From assembly GCF_013359815.1 (NCBI RefSeq), contig NZ_JABMCF010000040.1, forward strand, positions 124,001 through 188,000: 64,000 nt of DNA. The letters run 5' to 3'. The stretch comes from Curtobacterium flaccumfaciens. Lineage in GTDB: Bacteria > Actinomycetota > Actinomycetes > Actinomycetales > Microbacteriaceae. The notes under the pieces were generated by a model. It had not been told where the DNA came from. It did no database searches and worked only from the letters and a program-made list of their open reading frames with translations. Position 1 is the first letter of the stretch. Each line of letters begins with the position of its first letter. The translations under genes were made by a program, and so were the position numbers. This document shows positions 162 through 63,376 of this stretch, one piece after another.

Positions 162-303
162 GCGCTTGCACAGTCCCGCGTTCGCCGGCTGTGAACTGTG
201 GTGTGACACCCCCACGGGGGATTGTCGCTTTGTCCTGACGAGGGGGTACCGTGCTGCTGTCGGCCTCCCACCGACGACCATCCCATCCCCCCAGGACTCC
301 CGC

Positions 304-435
304 ATGACCAGTCAGAACGACGAGCTCAGCTCGCACCGCACCCGCACCAACCGTCGACCGGCCGAGGCCACCGTCACGACCGGTTCGACCGCCGTCCTCG
401 ACGCCCCCGCGACGGAGCAGTCGCAGGAGGCCTGA
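304..435 (+). CDS. small hypothetical protein, 43 aa
   Basis: A possible 43-residue protein starting at ATG 304 with a weak AGGA about 7 bases upstream. It is polar, rich in Thr, Arg, Ala and Gln, with no membrane segment or motif I recognise. The upstream bases 160-300 look intergenic. It could be a genuine small gene or chance; a conserved start with variable flanks in relatives would decide. Nothing in the sequence suggests a function. Confidence 0.3.
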   Translation: MTSQNDELSSHRTRTNRRPAEATVTTGSTAVLDAPATEQSQEA

Positions 436-467
436 GTCCCGCAGGCGCCCCCGGCGCCCGCTGAACG

Positions 468-516
468 GCCTGGAGGCCCGGATCACGTCCCACGGACGCG
501 ATCCGGGCCTCCAGGC
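468..516. repeat. type A palindrome (GGAGGCCCG hairpin), copy 1
   Basis: A perfect 17-bp inverted repeat: the left arm at 468-484 (GCCTGGAGGCCCGGATC) pairs with the right arm at 500-516 around a 15-base loop. It could act as a transcription terminator for the convergent genes on both sides. No U-tract follows. Confidence 0.85.
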
Positions 517-531
517 TGTTGCGTCCACACC

Positions 532-630
532 CGCGCGTACCGGGCGGAATCGGGCGTACCTGGTGAGAAGAACCGACTAGGTACGCCCGGATCGACCCGG
601 TACGCCCGAATCGACTCGGTACGCCCGGAG
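532..630. repeat. type B GTACC compound palindrome, copy 1
   Basis: Two GGGCGTACCKGG-type forward arms are followed, after a short AG-rich loop (GAGAAGAA), by three GGTACGCCCG reverse arms spaced about 18 bases apart. The arms can pair in more than one register, giving nested hairpins. Copies 2 (653-735) and 3 (822-903) have the same plan. Confidence 0.75.
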
Positions 631-652
631 CTGGTCGCTCAGCGAGGCGGCC

Positions 653-735
653 GCGCGCGTACCTGGCGGAATCGGGCGTACCTGGTCAGAAGAAACGACC
701 CGGTACGCCCGAAACGACCAAGTACGCCTGAAAGC
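653..735. repeat. type B GTACC compound palindrome, copy 2
   Basis: Same design as the copy at 532-630: forward arms GCGTACCTGG and GGGCGTACCTGGTC, loop AGAAGAAA, then reverse arms ACCCGGTACGCCCG and AAGTACGCCTG. The last arm has diverged. Confidence 0.7.
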
Positions 736-757
736 GGCCAGCCCGCACGCGGCGACC

Positions 758-806
758 GCCTGGAGGCCCGGCGGCAGTCCAGCGGACCGGCGCCGGGCCT
801 CCAGGC
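758..806. repeat. type A palindrome, copy 2
   Basis: Inverted repeat with arms 758-773 (GCCTGGAGGCCCGGCG) and 791-806, 16 bp, perfect, with a 17-base loop. Same family as 468-516. Confidence 0.8.
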
Positions 807-821
807 CGTCACGTCCACAAC

Positions 822-903
822 CGCGCGTACCTGGCGGAATCGGGCGTACCGGGTCGAAAGAACTGACCCGGTACCCCCGATTCGACCCGGTACGCCCGGC
901 GGG
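822..903. repeat. type B GTACC compound palindrome, copy 3
   Basis: Third copy of the GTACC element, ending only 2 bases from the stop codon of the acyl-CoA ligase gene. One reverse arm reads GGTACCCCC, a single-base departure from GGTACGCCC. It may form part of that gene's terminator. Confidence 0.7.
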
Positions 904-905
904 CG

Positions 906-6309: not shown

Positions 6310-6351
6310 GGACGGGAGGCCCGTGACGGCGCCGCCACGGGCCTCCCGTCC
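6310..6351. repeat. type A palindrome, copy 3
   Basis: A 42-bp palindrome without loop (21+21), with one mismatch, centred on GGCGCC, with GGACGGGAGGCCCGTG arms. It follows the 6258-6300 terminator between convergent genes. The downstream TGGGGTCGCGTCCAC tail is nearly repeated after the copy at 10366. Confidence 0.85.
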
Positions 6352-10365: not shown

Positions 10366-10407
10366 GGACGGGAGGCCCGTGGCGGTGTCGCCACGGGCCT
10401 CCCGTCC
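10366..10407. terminator. type A palindrome, copy 4, between convergent genes
   Basis: A 19-bp perfect stem (10366-10384 with 10389-10407) around a GTGT loop, sequence GGACGGGAGGCCCGTGGCG. It lies exactly between the Rv2175c-type gene and the convergent polyprenyl synthase gene. A shared terminator is the simplest reading, although there is no T-tract. Confidence 0.8.
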
Positions 10408-12033: not shown

Positions 12034-12070
12034 CTGACGGGGGTCAGCAGGACTCCCTCCACACTCCTCC

Positions 12071-12098
12071 ACGGGGTCGGCCTTCGGGTCGGCCCCGT
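12071..12098 (+). terminator. intrinsic terminator hairpin after the DUF3040 gene
   Basis: A 12-bp stem (including two G-U pairs) closed by a TTCG tetraloop: ACGGGGTCGGCC / GGTCGGCCCCGT, followed by TTCGTGTTC. It separates the DUF3040 gene from the dcw operon. Confidence 0.8.
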
Positions 12099-12155
12099 TT
12101 CGTGTTCCCGGGGGCTGGTTTTTGCGGGGTCCGGCCGGGGTCCGTGCCGGCGCGA

Positions 12156-12270
12156 GTGGTCACGACATGCCGCGTGCTGGCCGCCGAGGGTGCAGGAACC
12201 GTCGGTTGGGGCCCGCGCGAGCGACAGTTCGTGACCACTCGGCGGCGCGGCGGCGGCACGTCGTGACCAC
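12156..12270. repeat. type D nested palindrome, copy 1
   Basis: Outer arms GTGGTCACGACATGCCGCG and CGGCACGTCGTGACCAC enclose an inner pair GGAACCGTCGG and CGACAGTTCGTGACC. The inner segment GCAGGAAC-GTCGG-TGGGG recurs in copy 2 at 12401. Confidence 0.7.
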
Positions 12271-12400
12271 GCGCTGACCGGCGGCCGGGCGTGGTGGAGC
12301 CGACCGTGCGCCCGCGTGCGCTCCGCGGCGATGGTGGGACGGGCCTCCAGGCCGGGGTGGCCGGGGCTGCCGGGGCGGACCGCCGCCGGTGCGTGCGCGA

Positions 12401-12487
12401 GTGGTCACGACATGCCGCGCGGTGGATGCCGAGGGTGCAGGAACTGTCGGCTGGGGGCCGCGCGAGCGACAGTTCGTGCCCGCTCGG
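12401..12487. repeat. type D nested palindrome, copy 2
   Basis: Begins with the same GTGGTCACGACATGCCGCG as copy 1 and contains GAACTGTCGGCTGGGG followed by CGACAGTTCG, an 8-bp stem. The outer right arm is missing or diverged. GAACTGTCGGCTG is also the core of the 186-bp array units near 33.2-34.0 kb. Confidence 0.7.
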
Positions 12488-12689
12488 CGTCGAGTGCCCG
12501 CGGCGCGCCCCGGGGCGCTCCACCGGCTGCGAAAGTCCTCCACTTTCCTCCACGACTGCTCCGGCACGCGCGAACCGCATGGATCCGGGCATCCACGGTC
12601 ATCCCTGGGCGGTGCATTCCAGCCTCGATGCCCCCAGTAGGGGTGTCGCGGGCGGAAAAGGGAGCGGATTCCTGGTCGAGGGGAGGGGA

Positions 12690-12735
12690 GTGGAGTAAAG
12701 TGGGGCTCGCAACGGTCCGGTGGAGCGGAGGGGAG
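12690..12735 (+). promoter_or_regulatory. mraZ promoter and candidate MraZ operator
   Basis: Two direct copies spaced 30 bases apart, GTGGAGTAAAGTGGGG (12690-12705) and GTGGAGCGGAGGGGAG (12720-12735), resemble the G-rich direct repeats bound by MraZ upstream of dcw operons. TAAAGT (12696-12701) fits a -10 box, so MraZ would sit on its own promoter. The second copy doubles as the ribosome binding region. Assignment is by similarity to the known autoregulatory arrangement. Confidence 0.6.
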
Positions 12736-12742
12736 GCCCGAC

Positions 12743-14247: not shown

Positions 14248-14979
14248 ATGAGCACGAACCTCGCACTCGTCGACCCTGCGGTCGTCCCGTCGCGGGCCCC
14301 GCGCCCCGACCGTCAGCACCGCCCCGAGCTGGTCGAGGTCACGCCGACCGCGGCCCAGCGCCGGGCTCGCCCCCGCATCGGGTACGCCGTGGTGGCCGTC
14401 GCCGCGCTCGGCATCCTGCTGCTGGCCCAGCTCGGCATCAGCATGGTGCTCAGCCAGGGCGCCTACACGCTCAACTCGCTGTCGGCCGAGCAGACGAACC
14501 TGTCCCGCACGCAGCAGTCGCTGTCCGAGCAGCTCCGGGTCCTCGACTCGCCGCAGAACCTGGCCCGCAACGCGCAGTCGCTCGGCATGATCGCCAACTC
14601 GACGCCCGTGTACCTCGACCCGAAGACCGGTCGGGTGTACGGCACGCCGACGCCGGCGAAGCCCGACGAGGCCACGGCGTCCACCGAGAACCAGGTGCCG
14701 AACTCGCTGCTGAACGACGTCCCGCTGGCCACGAAGCCGGGGGACACCTCCACCAGCAAGGAGACGGGCACGACGAGCACGACGGACACGTCGGGCACGT
14801 CGGGCACGTCGGGCACGTCGAGCACGAAGGACTCGTCGGGCGCCACGGGCACCACGGGAACCACCGACAGCACCGCCACGTCTGAGAAGACGAGCGGCGC
14901 CAGCGCGTCGGACCAGGGGACGGCGAAGTCGTCCGTAGAGTCCGACGCGAACCCGCTCCAGGCGCCCTCCACCCGGTGA
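14248..14979 (+). CDS. FtsL-like bitopic division protein with low-complexity tail
   Basis: A 243-residue protein in the usual ftsL slot between rsmH and ftsI. A cytoplasmic N-terminus of about 48 residues precedes one membrane helix (IGYAVVAVAALGILLLAQLGI) and a short heptad-like segment (LNSLSAEQTNLSRTQQSLSEQL), as expected for FtsL/DivIC-type septal proteins. The last 90 residues or so are almost only Ser, Thr, Gly, Asp and Lys. They include a TSG triplet repeat encoded by 9-base direct repeats near 14788-14820. Sequence identity alone would not prove FtsL; the call rests on position and topology. Confidence 0.75.
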   Translation: MSTNLALVDPAVVPSRAPRPDRQHRPELVEVTPTAAQRRARPRIGYAVVAVAALGILLLAQLGISMVLSQGAYTLNSLSAEQTNLSRTQQSLSEQLRVLDSPQNLARNAQSLGMIANSTPVYLDPKTGRVYGTPTPAKPDEATASTENQVPNSLLNDVPLATKPGDTSTSKETGTTSTTDTSGTSGTSGTSSTKDSSGATGTTGTTDSTATSEKTSGASASDQGTAKSSVESDANPLQAPSTR

Positions 14980-32210: not shown

Positions 32211-33136
32211 GCGAATCGCGTTCTCTTCCCGTGCCCGACGGGCTCGCCGGTGAGCGCGTCGACGCCGCCATCGCGAAGCTCCTCGGCTTCAGCCGGTCGT
32301 TCGCGGCCGACGTCGTCGCGGCCGGTGGCGTCCGCGTCGACGGCGTCCCCGTCGACAAGTCGGACCGGCTGCACGCCGACTCCTGGCTCGAGGTCGAGTG
32401 GACCCCGAAGGAGCCGCCGCGCATCGTGCCGGCGGCCGTGCCGGGCATGACGATCGTGCACGACGACGAGGACATCGTCGTCGTGGACAAGCCCGTCGGC
32501 GTCGCCGCGCACCCTTCGCCGGGGTGGGACGGGCCGACCGTGCCCGGGGGCCTCGCCGCGGCCGGGTTCACCATCGCGACCTCCGGCGCCGCCGAACGCG
32601 CTGGGATCGTGCACCGCCTCGACGTCGGGACCTCGGGCCTGATGGTCGTCGCGAAGACCGAGCTGGCGTACACGCACCTGAAGCGGGCGTTCAAGGAGCG
32701 CACGGTCGAGAAGGTCTACCACGCACTCGCGCAGGGCCACCCCGACCCGACCTCGGGCACGATCGACGCCCCCATCGGGCGGCACCCGTCGAGTGACTGG
32801 AAGTTCGCGGTCACGTCGGAGGGCAAGCCGAGCGTCACCCACTACGAGACGCTCGAGGCCTTCCGGGCCGCCACCCTGCTCGAGGTGCACCTGGAGACCG
32901 GGCGCACCCACCAGATCCGGGTGCACATGGCGGCCACACGCCACCCGCTCGTCGGGGACACGATGTACGGCGCCGACCCGGTGCTCGCGGCGGAGCTCGG
33001 GCTGACGCGCCAGTGGCTCGACGCCGTCCGGCTGGGCTTCGGCCACCCCCGCACGGGCGAGTGGGTGTCGTTCGAGGCGCAGTACCCGGATGACCTGCAG
33101 GCAGCGCTGGAGCAGATCCGGAGCGCGTCGCTCTGA
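32207..33136 (+). CDS. RluD-family 23S rRNA pseudouridine synthase
   Basis: A 309-residue RluA/RluD-type enzyme that converts uridines in 23S rRNA to pseudouridine. An N-terminal S4 RNA-binding domain ([33 protein letters not shown]) precedes the catalytic motif [15 protein letters not shown], whose Asp is the nucleophile, and [16 protein letters not shown] 32207 overlaps lspA (GTGA). The exact uridine targets cannot be read from sequence. The lspA-rluD pairing is conserved in Gram-positive bacteria. Confidence 0.92.
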
Positions 33137-33139
33137 CGC

Positions 33140-34020
33140 GCCCGGGCGCTTGCGCTGAGTGGTCGTGAGCTGTCGGCTGCGGCGCCGCCAGGCGACGCTT
33201 TGTGCGGCCGCGGCGGAGCGCGTGCGGCGTGTCCTGCTCCCTCGGCGGCGCGGCTCGCGCGTGTCCAGAGCGCCGCGCCCGGGCGCTTGCGCCGAGGGGT
33301 CGCGAACTGTCGGCTGCGGCGTCGCCAGGCGACGCTTTCTGCGCCCGCGGCGGCCTGCGTGCGGCGTGTCTTGCCCTCTCGGCGGGGCGCCCCGCGCGCG
33401 TCGCGACCTGTTGCCGGTCTGGAGGCGCGGTGCGGGCCCGCCCCGCGCCTCCCGTCCGCCGTGCCCGGGCGCTTGCGCCAAGAGGTCACGAACTGTCGGC
33501 TGCGGCGCCGCCAAGCGACGCTTTCTGTGCCCGCGGCCGTCGGCGTGCGGCGTGTCCTGCTCTCTCGGCGGGGCGCCCCGCGCGCGTCGTGACGCGGTGC
33601 CGGTTTGGAGGCGCGGTGCGGGCCCGCCCCGTGCCTCCTGTCCGGCACGCCCGGGCGCTTGCGCCGAAGGGTCACGAACTGTCGGCTGCGGCACCGCCAG
33701 GCGACGCCTTCCGCACCCGCGGCGGTCGGCGTGCGGCGTGTCCTGCGCCCTCGGCGGGGCGCCCCGCGGGTGTCGCGACCCGGTGCCGGTCTGGAGGCGC
33801 GCTGGGGCCCCGCCCCGCGCCTCCTGTCCGGCACGCCCGGGCGCTTGCGCCGAGGGGTCGCGAACTGTCGGCTGCGGCGCCGCCAGGCGACGCTTTCTGC
33901 ACCCGCGGCGGCCTGCGTGCGGCGTGTCCTGCCCCCTTGGCGGGGCGCCCCGCGCGTGTCGCGGCCCGATGCCGGCCTGGAGGCGCGGTGCGGCCCCGCC
34001 CCGTGCCTCCAGTCCGCCCC
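33140..34020. repeat. 186-bp tandem repeat array
   Basis: Units begin with GCCCGGGCGCTTGCGC at 33140, 33277, 33463, 33649 and 33835. The last four are spaced exactly 186 bp; the first is 137 bp because it lacks the terminal hairpin. Each full unit holds GAACTGTCGGCTGCGGC with a following imperfect palindrome, a GGCGGGGCGCCCCGC palindrome, and a type A hairpin (GGAGGCGCG...CGCGCCTCC). Because 186 is a multiple of 3, several frames stay open on both strands, but their Arg/Ala/Pro-rich products follow the DNA repeat and are not convincing proteins. It lies between rluD and dnaE. Confidence 0.9.
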
Positions 34021-34050
34021 GACGCGCGCGGGAATGTGGGCGGCCGCGGT

Positions 34051-34056
34051 TAGGCT
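34051..34056 (+). promoter_or_regulatory. candidate dnaE promoter -10 (TAGGCT)
   Basis: TAGGCT follows the end of the repeat array and precedes dnaE by 39 bases; CCGGAGGTTCC is the ribosome binding site just before GTG 34096. Confidence 0.45.
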
Positions 34057-34095
34057 GTTCCCACCCCGCAGCACACCGTACGAACCGGAGGTTCC

Positions 34096-37626
<3,531 letters not shown>

Positions 37627-38788: not shown

Positions 38789-38789
38789 C

Positions 38790-38831
38790 GGACGGGAGGC
38801 CCGTGGCGGCGCCGCCACGGGCCTCCCGTCC
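38790..38831. terminator. type A palindrome, copy 5, perfect 42-bp
   Basis: A perfect 21+21 palindrome starting GGACGGGAGGCCCGTGGCGG and centred on GGCGCC, 1 base after the TIGR02569-like stop and 16 bases before the stop of the convergent glycosyltransferase gene. Probably a bidirectional terminator; also marks the left edge of the glycan island. Confidence 0.85.
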
Positions 38832-38847
38832 GCTCGTCGGTCGTCGC

Positions 38848-51690: not shown

Positions 51691-52377
51691 ATGTCGTTCG
51701 TGCGTCGCTCTCGATACCTGATGGCTGCCGTTGCGCTGGCAGTCGCCGTCGCGGTCCCCGTGGTGACCGTCGAACCGAACGCCCTCCGAGCAGCCGAGGT
51801 CGCGCCCGAGCACGACCTGCGTGTCGCCGTGGTCGGGGACTCCTTGAGCGCGGGACGATCGGGTTTCCTCGGGAACGGCCTGGACGACGAGAGCTGGATG
51901 ACGTACGCACAGGGCGACGGCATCGAGTACGCCGGTGGATGGGCACGGGCCGGCGCGACCCCGGACGCCATGGCAGCAGCCGTAAGACCGGTCGGCGACG
52001 TCGACGTGCTGGTGATCCTGGCGGGCACGAACGCCGTGCGCCTCGGGAAATCGCTCGACGAGGAGCGCTCGGCGTACGAGCGGATCGTCGAGACGGTCGG
52101 CGCCCGCAAGGTCATCGTGGCGGACCTGCCACCGTACCGGTGGCGGCCGGGAGCCGCGGCCACCTACCGGACGGCGCTGCAGCAGTTCGTCGCCGACGAA
52201 GGGTGGACGTGGGCGGATCCGTGGACGTTCGCCCGGTCCGGGTCCTCGTGGGCGGCCGGAGTGAGCACCGACGGCACACACCCAGCGGGCGCCGCCGAGT
52301 ACCAGCAGCTCGGCGGGGCGTTCCGGAGCATCATCCTGGCCGTGGGGACGTCCGCCGGACTGGACGATCGCGGCTGA
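51691..52377 (+). CDS. SGNH/GDSL-family hydrolase, exported
   Basis: A 228-residue protein with an N-terminal hydrophobic signal (MAAVALAVAVAVPVVTV) and a compact SGNH hydrolase domain. VAVVGDSLSAG holds the nucleophile Ser, VLVILAGTNAV the Gly-Asn block and VSTDGTHPAGAAEYQQLG the Asp-His pair. It may be an esterase acting on acylated glycans, opposing or completing the adjacent acyltransferases. ATG 51691 or GTG 51700; the latter lies 7 bases after GAGAAT and would be leaderless. The stop codon lies within a CTGACG repeat. Confidence 0.85.
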   Translation: MSFVRRSRYLMAAVALAVAVAVPVVTVEPNALRAAEVAPEHDLRVAVVGDSLSAGRSGFLGNGLDDESWMTYAQGDGIEYAGGWARAGATPDAMAAAVRPVGDVDVLVILAGTNAVRLGKSLDEERSAYERIVETVGARKVIVADLPPYRWRPGAAATYRTALQQFVADEGWTWADPWTFARSGSSWAAGVSTDGTHPAGAAEYQQLGGAFRSIILAVGTSAGLDDRG

Positions 52378-52418
52378 CGCTGACGCTGACGCTGACGCTG
52401 ACGCTGACGCTGACGCTG
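52374..52418. repeat. hexanucleotide microsatellite (CTGACG)7
   Basis: Seven perfect CTGACG units followed by CTGAGG, starting one base before the TGA of the SGNH hydrolase gene and ending about 27 bases before the -10 box of the next acyltransferase gene. Copy-number change would alter the promoter's upstream spacing, not the protein. Confidence 0.92.
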
Positions 52419-52444
52419 AGGCCGGCCCGTCTTCTGTCGATCGG

Positions 52445-63253: not shown

Positions 63254-63301
63254 GACGGACTGGAGGCCCGTGGCGACACCGCCACGGGCCTCCAGTCCGT
63301 C
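63254..63301. terminator. type A palindrome, copy 6, between convergent genes
   Basis: A perfect 22-bp stem (63254-63275 with 63280-63301) around an ACAC loop, GACGGACTGGAGGCCCGTGG at the 5' side. It lies 13 bases after pyrD and is probably its terminator. Confidence 0.85.
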
Positions 63302-63325: not shown

Positions 63326-63376
63326 GTGAGCAGAACACGCCGTGGCTCGCCAGTCGACCCGTCGTGTTCTGCTCAC
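63326..63376. repeat. GTGAGCAGAACACG inverted repeat
   Basis: A perfect 14-bp inverted repeat, GTGAGCAGAACACG (63326-63339) and CGTGTTCTGCTCAC (63363-63376), with a 23-base loop. It is unlike the type A family and lies between two other hairpins in the pyrD / DUF3043 gap. Confidence 0.75.

Follow-up and report, generated by a model that had tools for sequence, protein, structure and literature searches.

In the window, a 64-kb stretch of Curtobacterium flaccumfaciens DNA analysed here at its full length, a rluD-like gene (32231-33136) and dnaE (34096-37626) are separated by a gap of 959 bp with a GC content of 79%, most of which is occupied by five tandem units, one of 137 bp and then four of 186 bp. 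The gene on the left encodes an RluA-subfamily pseudouridine synthase that is nearest to RluD and scores under the RluD equivalog cut-off; the gene 3' of the array was identified as dnaE. With this qualification, the placement of the array between rluD and dnaE proposed in a first-pass annotation was borne out. Tandem Repeats Finder detected a period of 186 at 33271-34018 (4.0 copies, 89% match, score 1146) and a period of 137 at 33137-33402 (1.9 copies), and ungapped copies of the unit start at 33132, 33269, 33455, 33641 and 33827, giving spacings of 137, 186, 186 and 186. The constant 186-bp spacing and the single unit shortened by 49 bp, both noted in the first-pass annotation, were confirmed; the short unit is the first of the array and the missing 49 bp are the part that carries the terminal hairpin.

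Each unit is composed of an element termed A, followed in the full units by a hairpin termed B. All lie on the plus strand: unit 1 (33137..33268, element A without hairpin B), unit 2 (33269..33454, A and B, the hairpin extending to about 33458), unit 3 (33455..33640), unit 4 (33641..33826) and unit 5 (33827..34018, including the end of its own hairpin). Hairpin B is present in units 2-5 only, with cores at 33421..33452, 33607..33638, 33793..33824 and 33979..34010, and the same four units are the only ones to carry an exact copy of the palindrome GCGGGGCGCCCCGC (33382..33395, 33568-33581, 33754-33767 and 33940-33953). Units 2-5 carry the sequence GAACTGTCGGCTG unchanged and unit 1 carries it with a single mismatch; when two mismatches are allowed it is found 7 times in the window and 6 of 100 shuffled sequences reach that number, so the word alone is not rare evidence. 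Of the three palindromic modules described earlier for each unit, unit 1 has neither an exact GCGGGGCGCCCCGC nor hairpin B; the hairpin then called type A appears to be element B. The forward inner box of element A is well kept, with three mismatches to CGCCGAGTGGTCACGAACTGTCGC in units 2-5 (33290..33313, 33476..33499, 33662..33685 and 33848..33871, plus strand) and five in unit 1 (33153..33176, plus strand). Its inverted partner is worn (8-10 mismatches) and the outer boxes were recognised by eye only. The array is followed by a conserved 75-nt leader of dnaE (34021..34095, plus strand), 97-100% identical to that of five relatives and 84% identical to that of G046, and a dnaE promoter placed directly 3' of the array is plausible. 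A search of the 64-kb window against Rfam matched no known RNA family at the gathering score.

The first-pass annotation missed that the unit is assembled from parts dispersed over the genome and did not recognise element A as such. The array unit has 67 matches in its own genome and matches in all 66 genomes of the genus, and the matches split into two kinds that correspond to A and B. These were analysed in a 464-kb sample consisting of the window and twenty spaced 20-kb stretches, with genes called by a purpose-built codon model. A and B occur together in 4 gaps of the sample, some A elements alternate with B, and other tandem arrays are present elsewhere in the genome. Hairpins, B included, are strongly concentrated between genes (46.7 kb of gaps held 89 of them, 46.8 kb of gene sequence a single one).

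The arms of hairpin B read GGAGGC...GCCTCC; the element usually measures 32 nt, to which an outer extension is added. Copies with a complementarity of at least 0.7 number 37 in 464 kb, one of them inside a called gene. Gaps of 40-2500 bp were sorted by the orientation of their flanking genes, counting the four array copies once and excluding one copy that lies between divergent calls in 5.2 kb free of called genes. B occupied 18 of 49 convergent gaps, 14 of 139 co-directional ones and none of 60 divergent ones (convergent versus divergent, p = 7e-8). It lies close to stop codons: within 36 bp for 14 of 19 convergent copies and within 34 bp for 8 of 17 co-directional ones. Examples standing alone in convergent gaps of the window are located at 6315..6346, 10371..10402, 38795..38826 and 63262..63293. 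Across 67 intergenic copies, uncorrected for kinship and including some tandem copies with three array copies left out, double compensatory cells in the two parts of the stem numbered 72 and 49, where shuffling gave means of 39.9 and 32.4 and none of 2000 shuffles reached either value. Asymmetric subtypes of B recur at several loci. A covariance model of B matched all 66 genomes of the genus at E 0.001 and was not found outside it; among 90 genomes of the family (84 genera) only two were matched at E 1e-6, both from the genus itself.

The copy at 38795..38826 lies in a 59-bp convergent gap (38789-38847) that was compared across relatives carrying the right-hand gene; from 22 loci, the second copy of G017 and the poorly aligned G009 were excluded, leaving 20 genomes. 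An intact B was present in 10 of the 12 in which the next gene is convergent and in none of the 8 in which it is co-directional; the co-directional relatives have almost no gap, which could alone explain the missing hairpin there. The other two convergent cases are G031, with a degenerate B, and G034, in which B is missing, also from the first 220 nt of a longer stretch. The sequence of the stem changes between these relatives and its pairing is kept. The paired changes and the persistence of B at this junction suggest that it is kept by selection, and its placement and pairing fit a two-way terminator or a 3'-end hairpin. B is not a classical intrinsic terminator, as TTTT was found within 20 nt of either end in none of 40 intergenic copies.

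Element A (~130 bp) is built from a 24-bp box, CGCCGAGTGGTCACGAACTGTCGC, with a maximum of four copies set in mirror order at distances of 32, 39 and 32 bp, so that a full element with four boxes covers about 127 bp. With up to six mismatches allowed, the box has 47 matches in the 464-kb sample, located in 12 gaps and in no gene, and k-mers of the box were absent from 405 kb of genes. Its spacing is fixed: thirteen plus/minus pairs share a distance of exactly 39 bp, and six pairs on the same strand one of exactly 32 bp. A elements often form runs of two or three at a single site. In the window, a full element with four boxes (12142..12284) is followed 245 bp on by a second A element (12387..12529), and both lie in the 709-bp gap (12034-12742) before mraZ, with which the division cluster begins. 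Avoidance of divergent gaps by A was not significant (p = 0.076). A sequence-only model of A matched 64 of the 66 genus genomes, the exceptions being G002 and G023, and 10 of 120 genomes of the family, three of these from the genus itself and seven, weakly, from six other genera. The exact box was found in 3 of 299 family genomes, namely the own genome (29 copies) and two genomes of genus g35, and in none of the six other genomes of the own genus in that sample; the exact box is thus far narrower in range than element A. A GTDB scan with a longer form of the box returned ten stretches, nine from Curtobacterium and one from the distant Thiopseudomonas (L136, an exact pattern match).

The rluD-dnaE gap was compared across the genus using 60 fetched loci and the window. 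After setting aside 4 loci without a rluD match and 5 in which the rluD match is over 2300 bp away, 52 clean gaps were kept; G023, G042, G043 and G061 were outside this set, as was G065, in which dnaE had no match. At L044, L053, L058, L060 and L080, the best rluD match before dnaE lies at this larger distance with 73-86% identity, and gene order may differ there. The clean gaps fall into a short class (19 gaps, 84-147 bp) and a long class (33 gaps, 264-1022 bp). At E 1e-3 or better the unit matched all 33 long gaps, in some of them over only 22-32 nt, and none of the 19 short ones. Short, empty gaps are found in several clades, so that both gain and loss may have occurred. The gap of G005 (L084) contains at 102-344 a 19-bp repeat of about 13 copies.

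Close copies of the unit were counted in seven genomes, ranging from 1 to 5 per gap: five in the window genome (G000) and in G007, four in G046, three in G014, two in G003 and one each in G015 and G055, these being copy numbers as assembled, which may be inexact for any draft genome. A diverged copy is present in the gap of G056. As like units occupy the same place in G003, G007, G014, G015, G046 and G055, an assembly error is an unlikely source of the array. G007, which is listed as the same species as G000, has the same layout of five units with the short one first; support for grouping the short first units is weak (0.41 and 0.48). For 17 of 19 units of multi-unit arrays the nearest unit is one of the same genome, the exceptions being unit 1 of G007 and the partial unit 3 of G014. 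Units of G000 and G007 are on average 80.5% identical, third positions of rluD 89% and the 75-nt dnaE leader 100%. A high mutation rate need not be invoked for this divergence of the units, as separate amplification of different old variants would explain it. The single unit of G055 has a mean likeness of 0.881 to the G000 units, which are 0.870 alike among themselves, and may be near the ancestral form.

The first-pass annotation had left two branches, a structural DNA or RNA element and a repeat-protein nursery kept open by a period of 62 codons, and had counted at least two plus-strand frames and one minus-strand frame as open. This count is correct over the four full units (stops per frame: 1, 0 and 0 on the plus strand; 0, 0 and 2 on the minus strand) and does not extend to the whole array at 33137-34018 (1, 1 and 1; 0, 0 and 2). 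It is the several frames open over the full units that speak for their translation as a repeat protein or nascent gene, a reading that we regard as highly improbable. When random 186-nt units with the dinucleotide make-up of the array were repeated exactly fourfold, 4-6 frames were open in 1798 of 2000 simulations; openness across the array is the chance expectation at 79% GC. The bias towards synonymous changes in one frame that would have pointed to a protein was not observed. dN/dS among the four full units was 1.0, 1.04 and 0.73 in the plus frames and 0.86, 1.05 and 0.69 in the minus frames, near the means for shuffled columns (0.96-1.05, sd 0.32-0.42), and the 37 variable columns were split 11/14/12 over the three codon positions. 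Nor is the frame kept in two of the four multi-unit relatives: G003 and G014 retain a spacing of 186, but the spacings of G007 (143, 186, 186 and 208) and G046 (194 three times) break it. The idea that the 186-bp period is meaningful for translation was accordingly rejected, since that period is common by descent in one clade and is replaced by 194 in G046 and partly by 143 and 208 in G007. In addition, the codon model called no gene in the array, and the best Pfam match of the four open frames scored 16.2 bits, below the cut-off of 27. The array thus shows neither the synonymous excess nor the kept frame of a protein-coding repeat, and it is the structural branch of the first-pass annotation that the analysis supports.

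Element A is a candidate regulatory or mobile DNA element of the Microbacteriaceae, not described before, and a dedicated putative protein reading its phased mirror boxes could aid tandem growth and homogenisation, a proposal that we hold only tentatively. The boxes are conserved mainly at the sequence level and paired change among them is weak at most, which suggests protein binding; their middle varies between genera with the box arms still matching each other, as if site and binder changed together. That A is instead kept as a long hairpin of RNA or single-stranded DNA we likewise consider rather unlikely. The mirror order of the boxes is compatible with a hairpin, and other genera provide three loci whose inner arms are 100%, 92% and 86% complementary despite their different sequences. 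At 21 loci of the own genome, however, arms paired with their own partner no better than with shuffled ones (0.806 versus 0.801 for inner and 0.548 versus 0.556 for outer arms), although this comparison is biased because similarity to a single consensus guided the choice of elements. Choosing elements by one arm only, a less biased procedure, gave a weak excess of compensation (39 versus 30.2, sd 5.5; reached in 138 of 2000 shuffles). Unit 3 folds as RNA somewhat better than its shuffled versions (z -2.27, 4/200), too small an effect to build on. Maintenance of A as a hairpin through compensatory change was considered unsupported for the own genome.

Our preferred reading, which we regard as reasonably probable, is that the array is a non-coding BIME-like mosaic of terminator-like hairpins and probable protein-binding boxes. 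Each full unit would represent one A element, with its mirror-order 24-bp boxes partly decayed, followed by one hairpin B, and unequal recombination or replication slippage between units would account for tandem growth and homogenisation. At the RNA level, B would function as a terminator-like or 3'-end hairpin, working in both directions between convergent genes, and if it is taken as such, the array could serve as a multi-hairpin insulator between rluD and dnaE. The A boxes would be bound by a putative sequence-specific protein. Somewhat unlikely, in our assessment, is a purely selfish or neutral origin, with A and B as REP-like DNA spread by some enzyme and surviving at harmless 3' ends, and the array as a passive minisatellite without effect on rluD or dnaE. 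Such an origin would agree with a copy number that varies from 0 to 5 at one site in one genus with the neighbours intact, with the 19 of 52 clean gaps that are empty, and with the recurrence of asymmetric B subtypes, as copying would predict. It accords less well with B stems that stay paired through double changes and with the retention of B by 10 of 12 genomes at the convergent junction compared. The enzyme is also missing where it was sought: a search for the Y1 transposase (PF01797), with controls positive in 5 of 14 genomes, gave no match in the own genome at E 0.1 and none in the 66 genus genomes at E 0.001. Mobilisation by a RAYT was rejected on this ground, the search covering the Y1 family only.

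Several known systems resemble the array in part, all set beside it by description. BIMEs combine palindromic units with other conserved modules, often in tandem, and bind gyrase, Pol I or IHF; the array of A and B units likewise holds palindromes and other conserved modules in tandem. BOX elements of pneumococcus are module mosaics in which one part is amplified in tandem, and the array shares this mosaic character with a different host and different modules. REPINs are dispersed palindromes, as are A and B. Intrinsic terminators without a U tract exist in high-GC bacteria, and B similarly is a GC-rich hairpin soon after stop codons, two-way between convergent genes; unlike such terminators, its arms have the same conserved sequence at hundreds of loci, more than termination by itself would require. 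REP sequences of the GTAG and CGTC superfamilies are described as intergenic palindromes, mostly of convergent or co-directional gaps near the 3' end of the upstream gene, occurring alone or clustered with other conserved stretches (PMC3733652). B resembles them as a short palindrome in many intergenic copies that prefers convergent and co-directional gaps near 3' ends, but its stems are longer (a 32-nt core plus an outer extension), no unpaired GTAG or CGTC tag was seen by eye in its flanks, with CGTC occurring inside the paired outer arms, and it is accompanied by a second element with four boxes at fixed spacing (PMC3733652). In contrast to GTAG REPs, the 66 Curtobacterium genomes are without a Y1 transposase; CGTC REPs are themselves said to lack a dedicated one, and Actinobacteria are not among the phyla listed there with tagged REPs (PMC3733652). 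Because the transposase was not found and the unpaired tag was not seen, the A and B repeats were not filed under either superfamily.

By analogy, the nearest actinobacterial parallel to the array is the MIRU-VNTR of Mycobacterium tuberculosis. These dispersed tandem intergenic units, such as the rnc-fpg1 array, vary in copy number, are 40-100 bp long and are absent from the same gap in relatives, and the length of the array before the DNA-repair gene fpg1 is reported to be linked to expression (PMC2734929). The Curtobacterium array also consists of dispersed tandem intergenic units of variable copy number in an actinobacterium and is missing from its gap in some relatives; judged by description, it differs in having units of 186-194 bp with two palindromic modules (PMC2734929). 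The RepRanger census, which uses its own definition of REPs, counted them in three Actinomycetota genomes, so that such repeats are not unheard of in the phylum, and its main text does not name Curtobacterium (PMC12306157).

Familiar in kind as the repeat system is by its likeness to REPs and BIMEs, it is apparently undescribed in the Curtobacterium lineage as far as searches of open-licence literature show: judged by titles and the beginnings of abstracts, no description of repeats in Curtobacterium was found there. A high-GC actinobacterial genus thereby gains a REP/BIME-like system of its own, with some 300 hairpins per genome as a rough extrapolation from the 464-kb sample. As the genus has no Y1 transposase, how such repeats spread in the absence of a RAYT can be asked directly. 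The rluD-dnaE gap offers a natural series (empty, 1, 2, 3, 4 and 5 units) on the effects of an array beside the gene of the replicative polymerase, and such arrays could double as typing markers.

Other repeats were noted alongside A and B. Further families of intergenic palindromes, for example GTGAGCAGGAATGGTCG, GTGCGAGGTTGCGCAC and GGAACCAGGTTCCGGACAC, are present at L130:9192-9250, L117:18940-18998, L122:9905-9966, L122:4067-4133 and in other gaps of the sample. In one convergent gap of the window (162-905), the motifs CGGGCGTACCTGGT / GTACGCCCG recur alongside two B hairpins whose loops are longer. Tandem repeats of other kinds comprise a 9-bp repeat of 10.7 copies inside a called gene (14763-14858) and a perfect GCTGAC repeat of 7.8 copies (52373-52419). 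Finally, the palindrome GTGAGCAGAACACG...CGTGTTCTGCTCAC at 63326-63376 is perhaps an A-like element with another box middle.
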